Below are positions 56,052 to 64,000 of a stretch of DNA of 64,000 nucleotides, piece after piece (within the stretch, counting starts at the first letter, position 1; each line of letters starts with the position of its first letter). This DNA comes from Rhodococcus sp. P1Y. GTDB lineage: Bacteria > Actinomycetota > Actinomycetes > Mycobacteriales > Mycobacteriaceae. The stretch is from assembly GCF_003641205.1 (NCBI RefSeq), contig NZ_CP032762.1:2232001-2296000 (forward strand), in the 5' to 3' direction. Made by a program: the position numbers and the translations under genes. The notes below the pieces were generated by a model. It ran no database searches and was not told where the DNA came from. It saw only the letters and a list, made by a program, of their open reading frames with translations.

Positions 56052-56144
56052 TGTCAGTTTCAGAAGACGGCTGCACTCTTTGCAGGCGTTTCGAGGGTGA
56101 GTGCACGTGTCTTCTGACATTCTGATGTCAGAAGTGCGGTGCAC
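56052..56144. repeat. Transposon left-end repeats (TniA-binding sites)
   Basis: Three related sequences: 56052-56076 (TCAGAAGACGGCTGCAC core, direct), 56101-56119 (GTGCACGTGTCTTCTGACA, inverted) and 56126-56144 (TGTCAGAAGTGCGGTGCAC, direct). All share TCAGAAG and end in GCAC. Tn402-type ends have arrays of such 19-bp transposase sites. Confidence 0.85.
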
Positions 56145-56181
56145 GGTCGCGTTCGGCTCTCGGTGATAGGGGAGGCTTGTG

Positions 56182-57861
56182 ATGGACCCCGACAAGCTCG
56201 CCATCGTGGAGACCGGTGTGCTGACAGCGTCGGGGGAGCGGTGGTCCCAGGCCGAGGCCCGTTTCGGTGTCCTGGCTCCCTTGCTGGAGATGCATCCGGT
56301 GCGTTCGGAAGCGGTCGACGCTGCAGCGCAGCGCTTGGGACTATCCAGGCGGCGGGTCTACACGTTGATCGGCAGGCTCAGGAACGGGACGGGGACAGTC
56401 ACCGATCTTCTGACGAAGGTCTCGTCGGGTGGGCGTGGCCGCAGCCGAGTAGCGGCTGAGGTTGAGGAATTGATCGGCGACCATCTCACCCGATATTTTC
56501 TTCATCGCCAGAAGTTGAGTGTCGCTGCGCTGCATCGACGTATCGCGCTGGCGTGTCACCGCGCGGGTCTGCCAGTGCCGGCCAGAAACACCGTCACCGC
56601 ACGAATCGCCGCCCTCCATCCGGCATCGGTGGCCAGGTCCCGCGGAGGACCCGATGCCGCCCGCCCGCGTCAGTCCGCCGGCGACAGTCCACCGACAGTT
56701 GCGGGGATTCTCGATCAGGTCCAGATCGACCACACCGTCGTCGATGTGATGATCGTCGACGAGTACGAGCGGCAACCGATCGGTCGCCCCTACCTGACGA
56801 TCGCCATTGATGTCTTCAGCCGTTCCGTACTCGGGTTCGTCGTCACTTTGGAGCCGCCGTCGTCGATATCGGTCGGGTTGTGCCTGGGCCGCGTGTGCTG
56901 CGAGAAGCAGACATGGCTGGAGGCATGCGAGCTCGCTGAGCAGGTGCAGTGGCCGATGGCAGGGAAGCCGAAGCAGTTGTATCTCGACAACGCCTCCGAG
57001 TTCAAAAGCGAAGCGCTGCGCCGCGGATGCGCCCAGCACGCCATCACCCTCGAATACCGTCCTCCGGGCCGACCGCACTACGGCGGGATCGTCGAACGCA
57101 TCATCGGGACGGCGATGACGGCGGTGCACGAGCTGCCTGGGACCACCTTCTCGAACCCAGCGGACCGAGGAAGCTACGACTCGGACAAGCATGCGGCGTT
57201 GACATTGCGTGAGTTGGAACGCTGGCTGGTCCTGGCCATAGCCTCGTATCACGCGAGTGTTCACGCAGGGATCGGGAACACTCCGGCCGCGGTGTGGGCC
57301 GGCGGGGTCGCCGCAGTTGGTCATGCCCCTCGTGTGGTGCTCGGCGAAACCGCGTTCCTGGTGGACTTTCTTCCCGTCATCCGGCGACGTCTGACGCGTA
57401 CGGGCTTCGTTCTCGATCACGTGCACTACTTCTCGAACGCGCTCAAACCGTGGGTTGCGCGGCGAGAGGATCTGGGGCGGTTCGTGATACGACGTGACCC
57501 ACGCGATTTGAGCAGAATCTGGGTCCTCGAACCAGACGGTGCCGGCTATGTCGAGGTGCCGTACCGGACGATGTCACATCCCGCGGTGACACTGTGGGAG
57601 CACAGAGCTGCTATCACCCGTCTCCGCGAACAAGGTCGGTCGAACGTCGATGAGGGCGCACTGTTTTCGATGATCGAGCAGATGCGCGAGGTCACCGACC
57701 GCTCGCAGAAAGCCACCCGCAAAGCCCGGCGCAACCGTGCCCGCCGCATGCATCTCACCGGCGCCGCGTCTGCGCCGATCCCGGCGATCTACCCGCCGGT
57801 GGAGCCTCGAGCGGACGGCGGCACCGCAACGCCGGTCTTCAGCGATATCGAGGAATGGTGA
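56182..57861 (+). CDS. tniA: Transposase TniA (DDE, Mu/Tn7 TnsB type)
   Basis: 559 residues. The N-terminal part has helix-turn-helix regions (AAQRLGLSRRRVYTLIGRL). The integrase core shows aspartates in VQIDHT (about 183) and YLDNASEF (about 269) and glutamate in GGIVERIIG (about 305), giving the classical 35-residue D-E spacing. A Mu-type C-terminal domain and basic tail follow. The ATG at 56182 has GGGGAGG at good distance. It cuts and joins the element's ends during replicative transposition. Confidence 0.93.
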   Translation: MDPDKLAIVETGVLTASGERWSQAEARFGVLAPLLEMHPVRSEAVDAAAQRLGLSRRRVYTLIGRLRNGTGTVTDLLTKVSSGGRGRSRVAAEVEELIGDHLTRYFLHRQKLSVAALHRRIALACHRAGLPVPARNTVTARIAALHPASVARSRGGPDAARPRQSAGDSPPTVAGILDQVQIDHTVVDVMIVDEYERQPIGRPYLTIAIDVFSRSVLGFVVTLEPPSSISVGLCLGRVCCEKQTWLEACELAEQVQWPMAGKPKQLYLDNASEFKSEALRRGCAQHAITLEYRPPGRPHYGGIVERIIGTAMTAVHELPGTTFSNPADRGSYDSDKHAALTLRELERWLVLAIASYHASVHAGIGNTPAAVWAGGVAAVGHAPRVVLGETAFLVDFLPVIRRRLTRTGFVLDHVHYFSNALKPWVARREDLGRFVIRRDPRDLSRIWVLEPDGAGYVEVPYRTMSHPAVTLWEHRAAITRLREQGRSNVDEGALFSMIEQMREVTDRSQKATRKARRNRARRMHLTGAASAPIPAIYPPVEPRADGGTATPVFSDIEEW

Positions 57862-57865
57862 GCCG

Positions 57866-58804
57866 ATGACCGCATCGACAGGAAGCAGCGACGAAGCCAC
57901 CGAGTCGTCCGGTGAGGATTTGGGGCACCTGCGGGAGTCGGTTCGTCCGCTCGCCGCACTCGACGACGCGGACAGGATCCGGTTGATCCGGTCGGAGAGG
58001 TGGATTGGGTATCCGCAGGCCCGTACGGTCATCGACCATCTGGAGACGTTGTTGTCGTGGCCGGACCGACAGCGTATGCCGAACCTACTGTTGCTCGGTC
58101 CGACGAACAACGGCAAGTCGATGATCATCGAAAAGTTCCGGCGCACTCATCCGCCGATCAGCTTGTCCGATCGCGAGCAGATACCGGTGTTGTGCATGCA
58201 GATGCCCCCGGACCCGTCACCCGGCCGGTTCTACCTCGCACTGCTCACAGCGTTGGGAACACCGACCAGGCCCCGCAATCGGGTCCACGAACTCGAACAG
58301 CAAGCATTGATGCTGCTCCGCGTCACCGGCGTACGGATGTTGATCATCGACGAGCTCCACAATGTTCTCGCCGGCCGCGACAACGTGCGCCGCGAATTCT
58401 TGAACGTGCTGCGGTTTTTGGGCAACGAACTACGCATTCCTCTTGTCGCTGTCGGCACCCGTGATGCTTACCTCGCCATCCGGACCGATCCCCAGTTGGA
58501 GAATCGATTCCATCCCATGACTTTGCCGGTCTGGACCAACACTGCCGACACCAGATCACTGCTGGCCAGCTTCAGCACGAGCTTCCCCCTCCGCAAACCC
58601 TCGCACGTGACATCACTGGAGATGACCGACTACCTCCTTACTCGCTCCGAGGGCACCATCGGTGAACTGGCAACGTTGCTCACTGCCGCAGCAGTGACCG
58701 CCGTCGACAGCGGAGAGGAAGCGATGACCTCATCGGTGCTCACGCGCACTCCGTACCTCGGCCCCACGGAGCGACGCCGCCAGTTCGAACGCCACCTCGC
58801 GTGA
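57866..58804 (+). CDS. tniB: Transposition ATPase TniB
   Basis: 312 residues. AAA+ ATPase with Walker A LLLLGPTNNGKSMII (about 74-88) and Walker B MLIIDELHN. Related to TnsC and MuB, it marks target DNA and activates TniA. It starts 4 bases after the tniA stop, and its stop overlaps the tniQ start. Confidence 0.93.
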   Translation: MTASTGSSDEATESSGEDLGHLRESVRPLAALDDADRIRLIRSERWIGYPQARTVIDHLETLLSWPDRQRMPNLLLLGPTNNGKSMIIEKFRRTHPPISLSDREQIPVLCMQMPPDPSPGRFYLALLTALGTPTRPRNRVHELEQQALMLLRVTGVRMLIIDELHNVLAGRDNVRREFLNVLRFLGNELRIPLVAVGTRDAYLAIRTDPQLENRFHPMTLPVWTNTADTRSLLASFSTSFPLRKPSHVTSLEMTDYLLTRSEGTIGELATLLTAAAVTAVDSGEEAMTSSVLTRTPYLGPTERRRQFERHLA

Positions 58805-60033
58805 ACGCGCGGCTCGCACCGATGCCCGGTGATGCGTACGTTCGCCCGTGGCCGCTGCACCCGCAGCCACTGCCAGGTGAGGTCCTCTCGTCATGGTTGG
58901 CCCGGATATGCGAGCTGTATCCGCACATCAGGCCCTCTGACCTTCTTGCAGAACTCGAAATCGATTGTGCTGTCGAAGATCTCGACCGCTACACACCGGA
59001 GCCGATACTTGCCGAGCTGGCCGGTCGCGGTGCAGTCCCGGTAGAGAGGGTGCGGATGATGACGTTGGCGGGGTGGACACCGTGGCTGCTCGACAGCACC
59101 GACCCCGCCGGCTGCGACTTCGACACCTACGTCCACCAGTTCTCGATCCTGCTACCGGCCGACCTCGCGAGGGAGGATCGACGACGTCGCACACCCACGA
59201 GCGAGGCATGGTTGCCGTGGGCGAGCACTCCGCGTAGTCGGGCATGCCCGGCATGTGTCGACAGCCTCGAATCCACTGCTGGTATCAACATGGCTCTGCT
59301 GCAGCAATATCCGGTGCTGAGCAGCTGCCTCGACCACCGTTGTCGACTCGAACCCTGCTCTGTTTTCCCTGGTCATGCGATCTTCTGGGATCAGGTCCGG
59401 TTCGGTTCGGACGAACGGGTCTCGCCCGTTCCGGTTCCCTCGGCGGTCACGGACCTCGATCGGCGCAGCACCGAGGCCCTGACGACGGGATGGGTGGAAC
59501 TCGGCCCAGGCCGGGTACATGCCGCAGTGTGGTTCCGGCTTCTGCGCACCGTCGTCGACGAAGTGTCCTCGCCACTGGTTCGCACCGGACGGTGGGCGAC
59601 GAGGCTCGTTGCGATCTGGAAGGCCGCCGGTCGTTCTCGCCCGTTGCGGACCGCGTGGGTTCCGTTCGAGGACCTGCACTGGGACGAGCAGGCGAAAGTC
59701 CTCAAGGCCGCGGCGATCGCCATTGCGTTGGTCGAGAGCGGTGAGATCGATGCCGGCGGTGCGCACGCATCTCTGCTGAGCCCACGACCCTATGAGCCGG
59801 TCGATCCCGGGACAGCTCCGACGCGCTCGTCTTATCCCGCACCCGAGCGCGACCTGTGGGCTGACGCGCACGCTGCGGCCGAGGCCGCCATCGCGGCGGC
59901 GCGTGTCGATCCCGCATCCGCCAGTTCGTTGTACAACTTCCTGCGCATGGGGTGCCGCACCGCGGCGGAGCTGGATGAGACGGTGCAACTGTTCCTTGAC
60001 CACGGGATCCCGCTGCACCATCCGCCGACATAG
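58801..60033 (+). CDS. tniQ: Target-selection protein TniQ
   Basis: 410 residues, GTG start overlapping tniB (GTGA). The N-terminal TniQ domain includes PLPGEVLSSWLARICELYPHI. A zinc-ribbon-like pair is seen in SRACPACVDS and SSCLDHRCRL. TniQ is a relative of TnsD and directs insertion in Tn402/Tn5053 elements. The C-terminal half is helical and less conserved. Confidence 0.9.
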   Translation: MNARLAPMPGDAYVRPWPLHPQPLPGEVLSSWLARICELYPHIRPSDLLAELEIDCAVEDLDRYTPEPILAELAGRGAVPVERVRMMTLAGWTPWLLDSTDPAGCDFDTYVHQFSILLPADLAREDRRRRTPTSEAWLPWASTPRSRACPACVDSLESTAGINMALLQQYPVLSSCLDHRCRLEPCSVFPGHAIFWDQVRFGSDERVSPVPVPSAVTDLDRRSTEALTTGWVELGPGRVHAAVWFRLLRTVVDEVSSPLVRTGRWATRLVAIWKAAGRSRPLRTAWVPFEDLHWDEQAKVLKAAAIAIALVESGEIDAGGAHASLLSPRPYEPVDPGTAPTRSSYPAPERDLWADAHAAAEAAIAAARVDPASASSLYNFLRMGCRTAAELDETVQLFLDHGIPLHHPPT

Positions 60034-60064
60034 CTCTCGCCCGATGGAGCGGGGTCGTCCGCGA

Positions 60065-60389
60065 TGTGAAGTGACACCGAAGTTGTCCAATCGGACCAGG
60101 TAGTTGTCCACCGCGTTGCTGGGGGAATGCCTGGTCGGGTGCCAAATAACCTGTCCAATGATCGAAAATCTTCGGTCTCTGCGCGTGTTGTCAGTGAAGT
60201 TGTCCAACGTGAAGACCAGCCGGAGCCCGTCCTCGTGTTGGCGATGAGGGGGTCTGGACCTGCGGCGATGACAAGGAAGCTAGCGCGGCCGTGGGGAGCT
60301 TTCATGCGGGCGGTCTTCAGGAGTGGACATGCCCTGGTCACGATTGGACAGAAAGGCTGTCAATTGGACAACCAGCGTGTCACTTCACA
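60065..60389. mobile_element. 325-bp inverted-repeat element with 5-bp target duplication (mini-transposon candidate)
   Basis: The outer ends are 27-bp inverted repeats: TGTGAAGTGACAC, five variable bases, then TTGTCCAAT (60065-60091; complement at 60363-60389). The 5 bases outside each end are identical (CGCGA at 60060-60064 and 60390-60394), as for a target duplication. Inside are further copies of the GTTGTCCAA motif: plus strand at 60102, 60150 and 60198, minus strand at 60343. It codes for no protein. It sits between tniQ and the recombinase gene, so a resolution site is the alternative reading. Confidence 0.75.
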
Positions 60390-60567
60390 CGCGACGCACA
60401 CGCGGCGATAGCAGAGGAGCCCGTTTTCGCGCCGGGGTCATAGTCACCAACGTTATTTGTGCGGTGACCGACGAGAATTTTCCTTCCCGCACCGTCTCCG
60501 CGGAAACGCCTGCTCAGCGTGCTTTCGGCCTGAGAAGTCTGTCGGGAGGGCCCGCTACAGTCCAGCC

Positions 60568-61740
60568 ATGACAGATCGCCAGCTCGTAGACGGCCCGACC
60601 ACGATCCCGGCTGTCGTGCCGGGTGCCGCGGCGGTGTTTCCAGACCTACCGCCCGAGGTTGCTGCTCGGATCGAGCGTTCCATGGCCGCGTCCCGCTCGA
60701 CCGGTACCCGCCGGGCCTACACCTCGGCGTGGCGACGCTTCGAGACCTGGTGCACCGTCGCCGGGCACCACGCGTTGCCGGCGCATCCCGCGACAGTGGC
60801 GGCCTACCTCGTCGCCGCGGCCGACACGCTCACCGTCGACGGGACGCGGGCGTACGCGGCCGCGACGTTCGGCAAGTGGATTGCGGCGATCGCCGACCGC
60901 CACCGCGCTACCGGACACGACAACCCGTGCGGGCACGAGATGGTGCGCGCCACCCTCGCCGGTATCCGGCGGGACTACGCGTCGGCGGGGGAGCGGCCCC
61001 GCAACCCGCGCGCACCGCTGCTGACCTCCGACATCACCACGATCGTCGACCACGCCCGACGCACTACAGCGGGGTGGGCGTCGGAGGTGCTCGAACGCCG
61101 CGACACCGCGCTGCTGCTGATGGGATACACCGGCGCATTTCGACGCAGCGAACTCGTAGCGCTGGAATGCCGCGATGTGCGCCGCGACCGTCTCGACGGT
61201 GCGCACGTACGGATCCGAAGATCGAAGACCGACCAGGACGGAACCGGCATCGGAACGGTGAAAGCGCTTCCGTTCACCGACTGCCACGAATCCTGCCCGG
61301 TCTGCGCGTGGGTGCGATGGCTGCAGATCGTCGCCGCGTTCGACACCGGGGGCAGAGCCGCCGTCATTCGACTGCTTTCTCGCGCAGCACAATTCGACTC
61401 CCATCTCTGCCGCGGCACCCTGCCGACCGCCGAGAAACGGTCGCCGCTGTTCCGGTCTGTCCGCAAGAACGGCAACCTCTCCGACACTGTGTTGTCCGGG
61501 GCAGCGGTCCATGCGGCGATCCGCCGCCGCGCAGCTCACGCCGGGTACGACCCCGAGACTGTCATGCAGCTCGGCGGCCATTCCCTGCGGGCAGGATTCG
61601 TCACCCAAGCCTTCCGTAACGGTGCCGATGCACATGCGATCATGCGCCAGACCGGGCACACCACACCCGCAATGGTCGAGACATATGCCCGCGAGCACGC
61701 CCCTCTGGTCGGCAACGCGGTCACCGAACTCGGTCTATGA
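60568..61740 (+). CDS. Tyrosine recombinase (integrase/resolvase candidate)
   Basis: 390 residues. The N-terminal core-binding domain (RAYTSAWRRFETWCTVAGHHALPAHPATVAAYL) is followed by a catalytic domain with Arg in YTGAFRRSELVAL (about 192), HSLRAGF (His-x-x-Arg, about 337-340), GHTT and the tyrosine in MVETYAREH (about 373), so it should be active. I chose the ATG at 60568. It overlaps the next gene by 4 bases. In this place classical Tn5053 has the serine resolvase tniR, so this enzyme probably resolves cointegrates. Confidence 0.88.
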   Translation: MTDRQLVDGPTTIPAVVPGAAAVFPDLPPEVAARIERSMAASRSTGTRRAYTSAWRRFETWCTVAGHHALPAHPATVAAYLVAAADTLTVDGTRAYAAATFGKWIAAIADRHRATGHDNPCGHEMVRATLAGIRRDYASAGERPRNPRAPLLTSDITTIVDHARRTTAGWASEVLERRDTALLLMGYTGAFRRSELVALECRDVRRDRLDGAHVRIRRSKTDQDGTGIGTVKALPFTDCHESCPVCAWVRWLQIVAAFDTGGRAAVIRLLSRAAQFDSHLCRGTLPTAEKRSPLFRSVRKNGNLSDTVLSGAAVHAAIRRRAAHAGYDPETVMQLGGHSLRAGFVTQAFRNGADAHAIMRQTGHTTPAMVETYAREHAPLVGNAVTELGL

Positions 61741-62831
61741 CCGGGCGTGTGACTTCACCCGTGAACGCCGATAGGGCGACCGGGGTAGATGCTGACCACG
61801 ACGACTGCACCGGTTCGATTCGACCAGCGGATATCACGAACGTGGCGGTGCCGAAGCGGGATCGGCACACGTGGTCACTGTTCGAGGACTGGTGCACCGC
61901 CCATGACGAAACACCACTGGCGGCCTCCCCGGATTCACTTGCTCGGTTCCTCTCGGCGCACCCCGCGGCGTCCACGACCCAGCGCCGCCGGATCGCGGTG
62001 ATCGACGCCGCCCATTCCCGGCACCTGTTACCCCAGCCGGGCCGTGCGGAGGTCGTCCGGGCTGCGCTGGACGTGGCGCGTACGGCGCGCCTGCACGAGC
62101 TGGCAGCCGTGATCGGCGGCGTCATCGCGCGCCTCCCCGAATCCGGTTGGCCGTCCGAACTGTTCGCGCGGCGAGACGCCCTCGTCCTGGTCTTTGCCTC
62201 GACCGGTCTGCCGTACACCCAGATCGCGGCCCTGCGGCCCTGCGACGTCACCGCCGATCCGAGGATCGATGCCCTTCGTATCGACACAGGCCGCGGCGTT
62301 CGCACCGTCACTCCTCTCGCACTGATGGAGACGGGTATCTCGCCGCGGACGGTGTTCCAGCGCTGGTTGGAGGTGCTGGGCCATCACACGCGGTACCCGA
62401 ACACTCGAATGCTCGCCGACGCTCTCGATGCCGTGGGCGGTACCGGGCTCAGCGGATTCGACCGGTACGTCGATCCGGCCGGTCGACAGCCGCTGTCGAC
62501 CGCAATCGACCGGTGGGGTCACACCCCGCTGACTGCGACTGCACTTACCGCCCATGCGGTCGCCGACATCGTTCGAGCGCACCTGGACGGACGAGCACCT
62601 GTGCACCGACACCATTCGGTGCAGGCACGGCAGCCGAGCACAGATCTCGTACCCAAGCCCGCCTCGGCTTCGCTACTCGACCCCGGCTACTACGAACACG
62701 GGACTCGGGCACGCCGAGACGCACACCAGCTACTCGGTGGCGTCGATTCGACGCTCGACGACGTCGAAGAGCGTGCGGATTCACTGTTGAAGCGGCTTCT
62801 CGAATTCGTCGAGGCAGAAGTGCCGCCGTGA
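61737..62831 (+). CDS. Recombinase-fold protein lacking catalytic residues (helper candidate)
   Basis: 364 residues. The N-terminal half parallels the preceding recombinase (HTWSLFEDWCTAHDETPLAASPDSLARFLSAH). ELFARRDALVLVFASTGLPYTQIAALRPCDVT aligns with the active enzyme's ERRDTALLLMGYTGAFRRSELVALECRDVR, but the catalytic Arg is replaced by Pro/Tyr. I find no HxxR box and no C-terminal tyrosine. It is translated together with the active enzyme through an ATGA overlap. Probably a DNA-binding partner, not a recombinase. Confidence 0.7.
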   Translation: MTGRVTSPVNADRATGVDADHDDCTGSIRPADITNVAVPKRDRHTWSLFEDWCTAHDETPLAASPDSLARFLSAHPAASTTQRRRIAVIDAAHSRHLLPQPGRAEVVRAALDVARTARLHELAAVIGGVIARLPESGWPSELFARRDALVLVFASTGLPYTQIAALRPCDVTADPRIDALRIDTGRGVRTVTPLALMETGISPRTVFQRWLEVLGHHTRYPNTRMLADALDAVGGTGLSGFDRYVDPAGRQPLSTAIDRWGHTPLTATALTAHAVADIVRAHLDGRAPVHRHHSVQARQPSTDLVPKPASASLLDPGYYEHGTRARRDAHQLLGGVDSTLDDVEERADSLLKRLLEFVEAEVPP

Positions 62832-63090: not shown

Positions 63091-64000
63091 ATGAGCACTT
63101 CAAGGTTCCGTATGGCAACGTCGCTGCTCGCGTCGGCGGCGGTGATCGCCCTCGCCGGGTGCGGTTCCACCGAACCCACCGGTTCGGTGGCGGTGTCGAG
63201 CACTCCGGTGTCCACGTCGGCGGACGCGAAGGCTGCGACACCCGATGTGGCACCGTCCGAACCCGGACTGGTGGTGTACGCCAGTAACTACTCTGTGAGT
63301 GACACGGTCTCTCGGGTACAGCGCGCGCTGGAGACGGCGGGAGCTGTGGCAGCCACTGTGGATTTCGAGAAGTTGGCACAGGGAGCAGGTGAGACGATCC
63401 GCCCGACCACCGTGGTGATCGGGGGGAATCCGAAAGCGGCGTCGCCGTTGATCGCCGCGGACCAACGGGCCGCGATCGACCTTCCACAGAAGTACCTGGT
63501 CTGGCAGGCCGCCAACGGAACGGTGTTTCTGGCATACAACTCCGCCGAGTACATCGCGACGCTCGCAGGCATCCCGGTCTCGTCCGACGCCCTCGACGGA
63601 CTCCGGGCCGGCTCGGCATCGACCGCGTCCGATGCGACGGGATCCTCGGCGGCCGCCGCAGAGGGCACCGATGTGTCCGCAGCGCCGGGATACCTGGTCG
63701 AGAAGACCAGTGATGCATCGGTTGCAGCGTCCATTGCCCGATACGAGGCAGCGTTCGCGGCCAAGAATCAGCCCACAGTCGCAACCGTCGATCTCGCGTC
63801 CGCCGCTGCCGAGACACCTCTGAGGCCCACCATGGTCACCTACGTCGGTAATCCTGCGGTCTCGACTGCGCTGGTCGGAGCGCAGCAGACCATGGGGATC
63901 GACCTCCCCGCCCGATACGTGGCGTGGCAGGATGCCGAAGGGATCGTTCACGTGGCTCACCCCGATATCCGTGTACTCGCCGCTCGGCATTCGATCTCGC
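63091..64000 (+). CDS. Lipoprotein with two DUF302 domains (cut by window end)
   Basis: The first 303 residues are visible; the frame is open at 64000. A lipoprotein signal (ASAAVIALAGC) with lipobox LAGC is followed by a Ser/Thr/Ala linker. Two tandem DUF302 domains follow (GLVVYASNYSVSDTVSRVQRALETAG with VVIGGNPKAASPL and AIDLPQKYLVWQ; then GYLVEKTSDASVAASIARYEAAF with VTYVGNPAVSTAL and GIDLPARYVAWQ). DUF302 proteins are often found with metal-resistance and thiol genes. It appears to be transposon cargo. Homologous domains were judged by eye. Confidence 0.75.
   Translation, partial: MSTSRFRMATSLLASAAVIALAGCGSTEPTGSVAVSSTPVSTSADAKAATPDVAPSEPGLVVYASNYSVSDTVSRVQRALETAGAVAATVDFEKLAQGAGETIRPTTVVIGGNPKAASPLIAADQRAAIDLPQKYLVWQAANGTVFLAYNSAEYIATLAGIPVSSDALDGLRAGSASTASDATGSSAAAAEGTDVSAAPGYLVEKTSDASVAASIARYEAAFAAKNQPTVATVDLASAAAETPLRPTMVTYVGNPAVSTALVGAQQTMGIDLPARYVAWQDAEGIVHVAHPDIRVLAARHSIS

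Follow-up and report, generated by a model that had tools for sequence, protein, structure and literature searches.

A 325-bp segment of Rhodococcus sp. P1Y DNA is very probably a non-autonomous mini-transposon of the Tn7/Tn402 (TnsB/TniA) superfamily, whose insertion is directed by a conserved block next to a tyrosine recombinase gene. The segment occupies positions 60065 to 60389 (plus strand) of the window, by which we mean the whole 64,000-nucleotide stretch that was analysed, and the family to which it belongs was named F1. It has inverted tips, its site is empty in 12 relatives, and homologues are present at other sites. In the genomes compared, insertion with duplication of the target, empty sites, independent insertions and, for most copies, a fixed distance and orientation relative to the block were all evident.

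Structure of F1 and its host element

F1 sits between tniQ and the tyrosine recombinase gene of a Tn402-type element, which is 18,470 bp long in all. The host begins at position 56052 and runs on the plus strand to position 64000, its right end being beyond the window; its ends start with TGTCAGTTTCAGAAG, read TGTCAGTTTCAGAAGACGGCTGCAC, and are flanked by a perfect TCCGC duplication of their own. Its genes in the window, all on the plus strand, are tniA (56179 to 57861, with Mu-transpos_C above the Pfam cut-off and rve just below it), tniB (57737 to 58804), tniQ (58801 to 60033), the tyrosine recombinase gene (60568 to 61740, Phage_integrase), which is the neighbour of the proposed target, and the second gene of the recombinase module (61737 to 62831). 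The second protein has no Pfam match and a weak similarity to the recombinase. It shows about 24-31% similarity in parts to the tyrosine-recombinase genes of relatives, and is possibly a helper derived from such an enzyme. The host element with the identical 325-bp insert was found in three of 37 genomes of the genus, including that of the window. The match in G024 extends over 18,474 bp at 99.1%, that in G035 over 10,013 bp up to the contig end, and the flanking bases of both differ from those in the window.

On either side of F1 lies one copy of the 5-bp target duplication CGCGA (60060 to 60064 and 60390 to 60394). The terminal inverted repeats, at 60065 to 60091 on the plus strand and at 60363 to 60389 on the minus strand, the latter being the end nearest the recombinase block, are 27 nt long and 85% complementary. 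Their outermost 13 nt, TGTGAAGTGACAC, are perfectly complementary and occur in exact form nowhere else in the window; in the left repeat this tip is followed by the first box, TTGTCCAAT. Boxes of the TGTCCA type form two arrays that face inward, four on the plus strand at the left (60083 to 60207; element positions 20, 41, 88, and 137) and three on the minus strand at the right (60323 to 60371; 20, 40, and 61 from the right tip, hence 20-21 bp apart). To judge from Tn7-type ends, both arrays presumably serve as transposase-binding sites. Six TTGTCCAA boxes with at most one mismatch lie within the 335 bp of F1 plus its duplications. Shuffled sequence contained 26.5 such boxes per 64,000 bp, or about 0.14 expected in 335 bp, and from this rate the chance of six is calculated to be about 1e-8. 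The original prediction had described the 325 bp, the 27-bp repeats, the CGCGA flanks and the plus-left, minus-right boxes without error, and it was right that the motif is unlike the repeats of the host element, whose ends begin differently from the F1 tips.

The longest open reading frame kept within the 325 bp encodes 47 amino acids. No Pfam match was found in one open reading frame overlapping the segment (60127 to 60411), and no Rfam match to the 325 bp up to an E value of 0.1. With its TGT/ACA tips, 5-bp duplication, inverted repeats, one-copy empty site, and copies with varied duplications, F1 has the features of a DDE-type mini-transposon. It has in addition the inward arrays of approximately 20-bp boxes at both ends (four left, three right, presumed to bind transposase) that characterize Tn7-like elements. 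As the 325 bp encode neither TnsB/TniA nor TnsC/TniB, F1 is not classified as a Tn7-like transposon but as a non-autonomous element with the behaviour of one. The 25-bp-type TCAGAAG ends of the Tn5053/Tn402 family are absent from F1.

It is very unlikely that F1 was moved by the TniABQ proteins of its host. The tni system does adjoin F1, and tni-defective elements of the Tn5053 family are presumed to be mobile in trans (PMC7765201), but the tips and boxes of F1 differ from the host ends, and five of ten genomes with F1 copies or remnants, including RHA1 and G289, have no TniA match at E ≤ 1e-12.

Empty sites and copies at other locations

The junction was compared with 30 recombinase loci, each taken with 1.5 kb on either side. 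F1 is inserted within a host-type element in three of them (L087, L088, L107). In another 12 (L089-L093, L099-L105), all Tn402-type elements, the sequence to the left and right of the junction aligns but F1 is missing; the tniQ-side identity to the window is 93-96%. In all 12, the tniQ end runs into the recombinase side with a single copy of the target, which is CGCGA in nine and CGCGG in three. The remaining 15 loci are too divergent upstream for the empty-site comparison, and one of these, L111, holds another copy of F1.

Similarity searching (E ≤ 1e-4) detected F1 in 11 of 401 genomes of the family and an end-pattern search detected it in nine, and a similarity search of plasmids gave seven records, six of them from Rhodococcus. 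Fifteen distinct F1 loci were distinguished, the last few of them partial and seven of them with both tips: the window (together with G024 and G035), RHA1 (two), G13, ZPP, G289 (two), G279, G299 (two), G234, LW-XY12/G129 (one common locus), DND3, MSA14, and G225. These counts leave aside a weak match in Embleya, internal matches of 29 and 50 bp in G107 and contig 2 of G279, two-mismatch ends in G076 and G564, plasmid matches at chance level, and three weak matches in the window's genome. Six of the seven two-tipped copies have perfect 5-bp repeats that differ from one another, namely CGCGA in the window, GGATT in RHA1 pRHL3, CGAAA in G13, CACAT in ZPP, GACAC in G289 contig 498, and CGACG in G279; in the seventh (G289 contig 190), four of five bases match. 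The second copy in RHA1 has a damaged right tip and adjoins a serine resolvase gene (L063 9356-9687 and 9932-10933). Left of the copy in ZPP, a 14-bp sequence (L019 5986-5999) is identical to the right tip of F1 (CCTGTCACTTCACA), so that F1 may have inserted there next to the remnant of an earlier F1.

Because the site is empty in relatives and copies elsewhere carry other duplications, we conclude that F1 is a mini-transposon and not a fixed recombination site. The prediction of a mini-transposon with Tn7/TniA-type ends other than those of the host is supported by the 12 empty sites and by the copies with other duplications. Two of the comparisons that it had proposed agree with this: related Tn402-type elements lacking the insert exist, each with a single target copy, and copies at other sites with different repeats were found in Rhodococcus. 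It had offered as an alternative that the array is the resolution site of the adjacent recombinase and the CGCGA match is due to chance; in such a res-like site, the boxes would bind the tyrosine recombinase or a helper. Nine of the 15 F1 copies do lie by the block of the recombinase module. Twelve close relatives, however, keep the recombinase without the 325 bp; the duplications vary among F1 copies, yet match within six of seven; and the recombinase is present in 150 of 401 family genomes (E ≤ 1e-40), against 11 of 401 for F1. Nor is the segment confined to the junction of tniQ and this recombinase, since its relatives occur elsewhere. As it was worded, the alternative is refuted, and we give a res-like site next to no credence. 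Of the proposed link to the recombinase, the fixed resolution site has thus been lost, and what stands is a neighbourhood that is not coincidental and looks like a target.

Distance to the recombinase block

The proposed target mark is a conserved block, TTTGTGCG...GACGAGAATTTTCC...CGCACC, at positions 60456 to 60493 on the plus strand, upstream of the tyrosine recombinase gene and starting 66 bp past the F1 right tip. Across the host and its relatives the block reads TTTGTGCG...GANAATT...CGCACC. The distance from the right tip of F1 to the block could be taken directly in the window (66 bp), RHA1 (62 bp), G289 contig 498 (62 bp), G279 (65 bp), and G299 (64 bp). Raw distances in G13, ZPP, G289 contig 190, and LW-XY12/G129 were 272, 317, 121, and 1239 bp, with an element of a second family, F2, in between. 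The F2 inserts at these four loci have their own perfect 5-bp repeats (CCGAC, ACAAA, ACACC, and ACCAG), and subtraction of the F2 length plus repeat leaves 65, 65, 61, and 63 bp between F1 and the block. Nine of the 15 F1 loci, among them all seven two-tipped copies, therefore lie 61-66 bp from the block, four of the nine distances resting on the subtraction of a later F2 insert, and the right end points toward the block in nine of nine. If placement were even over 400 bp and independence is assumed, the probability of nine copies within a 5-bp span would be about 5e-15, and that of the five direct distances within 4 bp about 5e-8; for the seven copies with different duplications our own arithmetic gave about 3e-11.

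The copy in RHA1 is nested in F3, a mini-element of a third family (1014 bp including F1, duplication CTCAT), and the block is still 62 bp away. The bases at this insertion point are those of F3, yet the distance is kept, which suggests that the block and not the local sequence sets the place of insertion. Insertion that keeps one distance and orientation to a recognised site while the target duplications vary is directed insertion of the Tn7 type.

Six of the 15 loci do not follow the rule. No block was found within 2.5 kb of F1 in DND3 and MSA14 (L021, L022); in these two, F1 is followed on its right, after 15-17 bp, by an F2-like left tip, and the corresponding spacing in the four F2-interrupted loci is 17-19 bp. 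In G225 (L065) the block is 448 bp from F1. The damaged RHA1 copy (L063) has no block, its neighbour being the serine resolvase, and the right F1 end is missing in the other copy of G299 and in G234 (L056, L059). RHA1, G13, and ZPP retain the block with no intact recombinase gene downstream in the right orientation. A recombination site and a promoter/operator are both possible roles for the block. A search for a recombinase core within it gave best dyads of 6-9 of 11 pairs in 20 blocks, with centre and spacer free and without a shuffle control, and was not convincing.

Fixed placement also bears on the possibility that F1 is a mini-element of some other box-ended family, such as IS21 (IstA/IstB), with a merely passive proximity to the recombinase. 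IS21-type ends likewise have repeated boxes and short duplications, and an IS21-like element is located near one F1 copy (L057). The repeats of that element read TGAAGTGGCCCC, however, and differ from the F1 boxes, and a fixed distance and orientation to one block, which is common to TnsABC-TniQ elements, is unexpected of IS21. We consider this origin improbable.

F2 approaches the same block at its own distance. At 15 loci its right tip was 49-52 bp away (52, 51, 49, 50, 50, 51, 49, 52, 51, 49, 49, 49, 52, 49, and 49 bp). The F2 tips read TGTAGGTT/AACCTACA, with the left tip CGTAGGTT in G13 (L018). Five loci (L133, L155, L159, L160, and L162) have similar flanks and may stem from one insertion, the tip in L159 having one mismatch and no clear array; we therefore claim only at least seven independent F2 insertions after merging loci with the same or similar flanks, four of them with duplications on both sides. 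As L155-L162 were chosen for F2 or TnsB matches near the recombinase, they inform on distance and not on frequency.

Small elements of both additional families were seen as well. F2 mini-elements with 5-bp duplications lie by recombinase modules or their remains at L057 14192-14447, L020 5085-6255, L019 6324-6570, L060 (a 55-bp relic), and L018 (202 bp); the F2 mini-element of 1171 bp contains an open reading frame for a 191-amino-acid protein without Pfam match. F3, likewise array-ended (TGTCCTGACTCAGTGA, TGGCGA-like boxes), is found at L057 14489-14731, L017 5349-6362, and L132 6001-6243, with the perfect duplications GGCGC, CTCAT, and GGCCT.

Candidate machinery and known systems

F2 includes elements with genes. 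On pRpMTN (L133), an F2 Tn7-like element beside the recombinase module carries genes annotated as TnsA-like, integrase, TniB, and TniQ. In Pfam, TniB and TniQ scored above the cut-off, whereas TnsA and rve stayed below it. The far end of this element was not found. TnsA- and TnsB-type genes also adjoin the recombinase in L139/L161 and L162, in an operon that looks interrupted or is seen in part. In Rhodococcus jostii RHA1, two elements with F2-type tips, each about 7 kb long, are complete. The one on pRHL3 (L134 6749-13784, 7036 bp, duplication GCAGG) is annotated with TnsA-like, HTH/transposase, AAA, and TniQ genes, and the one on pRHL1 (L135 6704-13525, 6822 bp, duplication ACAAC) lies in an unannotated record and has a TnsB match. 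Five Tn7-like loci (L134-L138) are not beside the tyrosine recombinase in question, so that F2-type transposases have other targets too. The F2 TnsB and the host TniA are 22-25% identical in local alignments.

Full-length transposons with F1 ends, which the original prediction had envisaged, were not found among the genomes, plasmids, phages, and viral contigs searched. Neither similarity nor end pattern revealed one in the 401 family genomes, and none was present in two sister genera (28 and 18 genomes) or in 394 genomes of the class; a search of genome contigs added only an F1 copy in Rhodococcoides trifolii. The ten genomes with F1 copies or remnants contain nine TnsB-like and five TniA-like places. 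F1 ends were absent around four of the TnsB-like places, two more in RHA1, and one TniA-like place in G279, and they were also absent from the TniA-like loci of the F1 genomes taken with 1.5-kb flanks. The genome of the window lacks a relative of the F2-type TnsB at E ≤ 1e-15, so its F1 copy can at present probably move only as a passenger of the host.

From F2 and the known behaviour of Tn7-like elements we infer the class of the transposase, the role of the boxes as its binding sites, and the reader of the block; F1 would accordingly be moved by a TniA-like enzyme. A transposase of the TnsB/TniA type, supplied in trans, would bind and pair the boxes at both ends of F1. A TnsC/TniB-type ATPase and a target selector would bring it to the block, which may be marked by a TniQ/TnsD-type protein or by the tyrosine recombinase bound to its own site. 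The TGT/ACA tips would then be joined to the two target strands with a 5-bp stagger, about 64 bp from the block and with the right end toward it, which would create the 5-bp duplication. Tn7-like elements are described as inserting at a set distance from the site that they recognise, which is about 50 bp in CASTs (PMC8649781).

With Tn7 and Tn7-like elements F1 shares TGT...ACA ends, arrays of approximately 20-bp boxes, the 5-bp duplication, and fixed distance and orientation, and one member of its sister family F2 carries TnsA, TnsB, TniB/TnsC, and TniQ; F1 itself, in contrast, is gene-less, and its mark is the block at a tyrosine-recombinase module. MITEs and TIME-type elements are short, lack a transposase gene, and have inverted ends and a target duplication. 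F1 has these features in common with them, whereas its insertion is directed rather than scattered. Resolvases of the Tn3-family type are serine recombinases. Tn5053-family elements target the resolution sites of resolvases, as stated in PMC11406308 and PMC7765201, and this makes the bound-recombinase reading attractive for F1. The Tn5053/Tn402 "res site hunters" described there resemble F1 in targeting resolution sites of other mobile elements, but they use sites of Tn3-family-type resolvases, where F1 has a tyrosine-recombinase neighbour, and the end sequences differ. By analogy, F1 is best read as hunting the site of a tyrosine recombinase as Tn5053 hunts res sites.

TnsF/Tsy likewise links Tn7 targeting with tyrosine-recombinase proteins (PMC10293859), but in that case the element selects comM through a recombinase-derived protein of its own, whereas for F1 the recombinase module is the target neighbourhood. 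In two Tn7-like clades, the elements themselves include tyrosine or serine resolvases (PMC8649781); for F1 and F2, such a module is instead the landing place. The same paper describes an Actinobacteria-dominated Tn7-like clade that had no experimentally characterised member in 2021. Tn7706, a published Tn7-like transposon of Rhodococcus erythropolis, has tnsA, tnsB, tniQ, and tniB, and the word "tyrosine" does not occur in the main text of that paper (PMC12915292). A literature search of titles and abstract openings, mostly of papers other than subscription ones, yielded no report of such a target or of such mini-elements.

Tn7-like systems are under development for programmable insertion, and how varied their target selectors are is still being explored. 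The loci described here amount to a naturally replicated experiment, in which two end families each keep their own distance to one mark while the neighbouring sequence differs, and F1 provides a minimal substrate of 325 bp with both ends. The finding on F1 and F2 would extend "res hunting" to tyrosine recombinases. We think it rather probable that these loci reflect a guild of Tn7-superfamily elements, some with a TnsABC-TniQ operon, some cargo-bearing and some gene-less, in which at least two end families are represented. Their common attachment site would be the crossover region of a tyrosine-recombinase module that is widespread in actinobacteria, and each family would keep a fixed distance of its own to it (about 50 and about 64 bp). 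If so, the resolution modules of plasmids and transposons would be a general landing pad, and gene-less mini-elements would ride the same targeting path.
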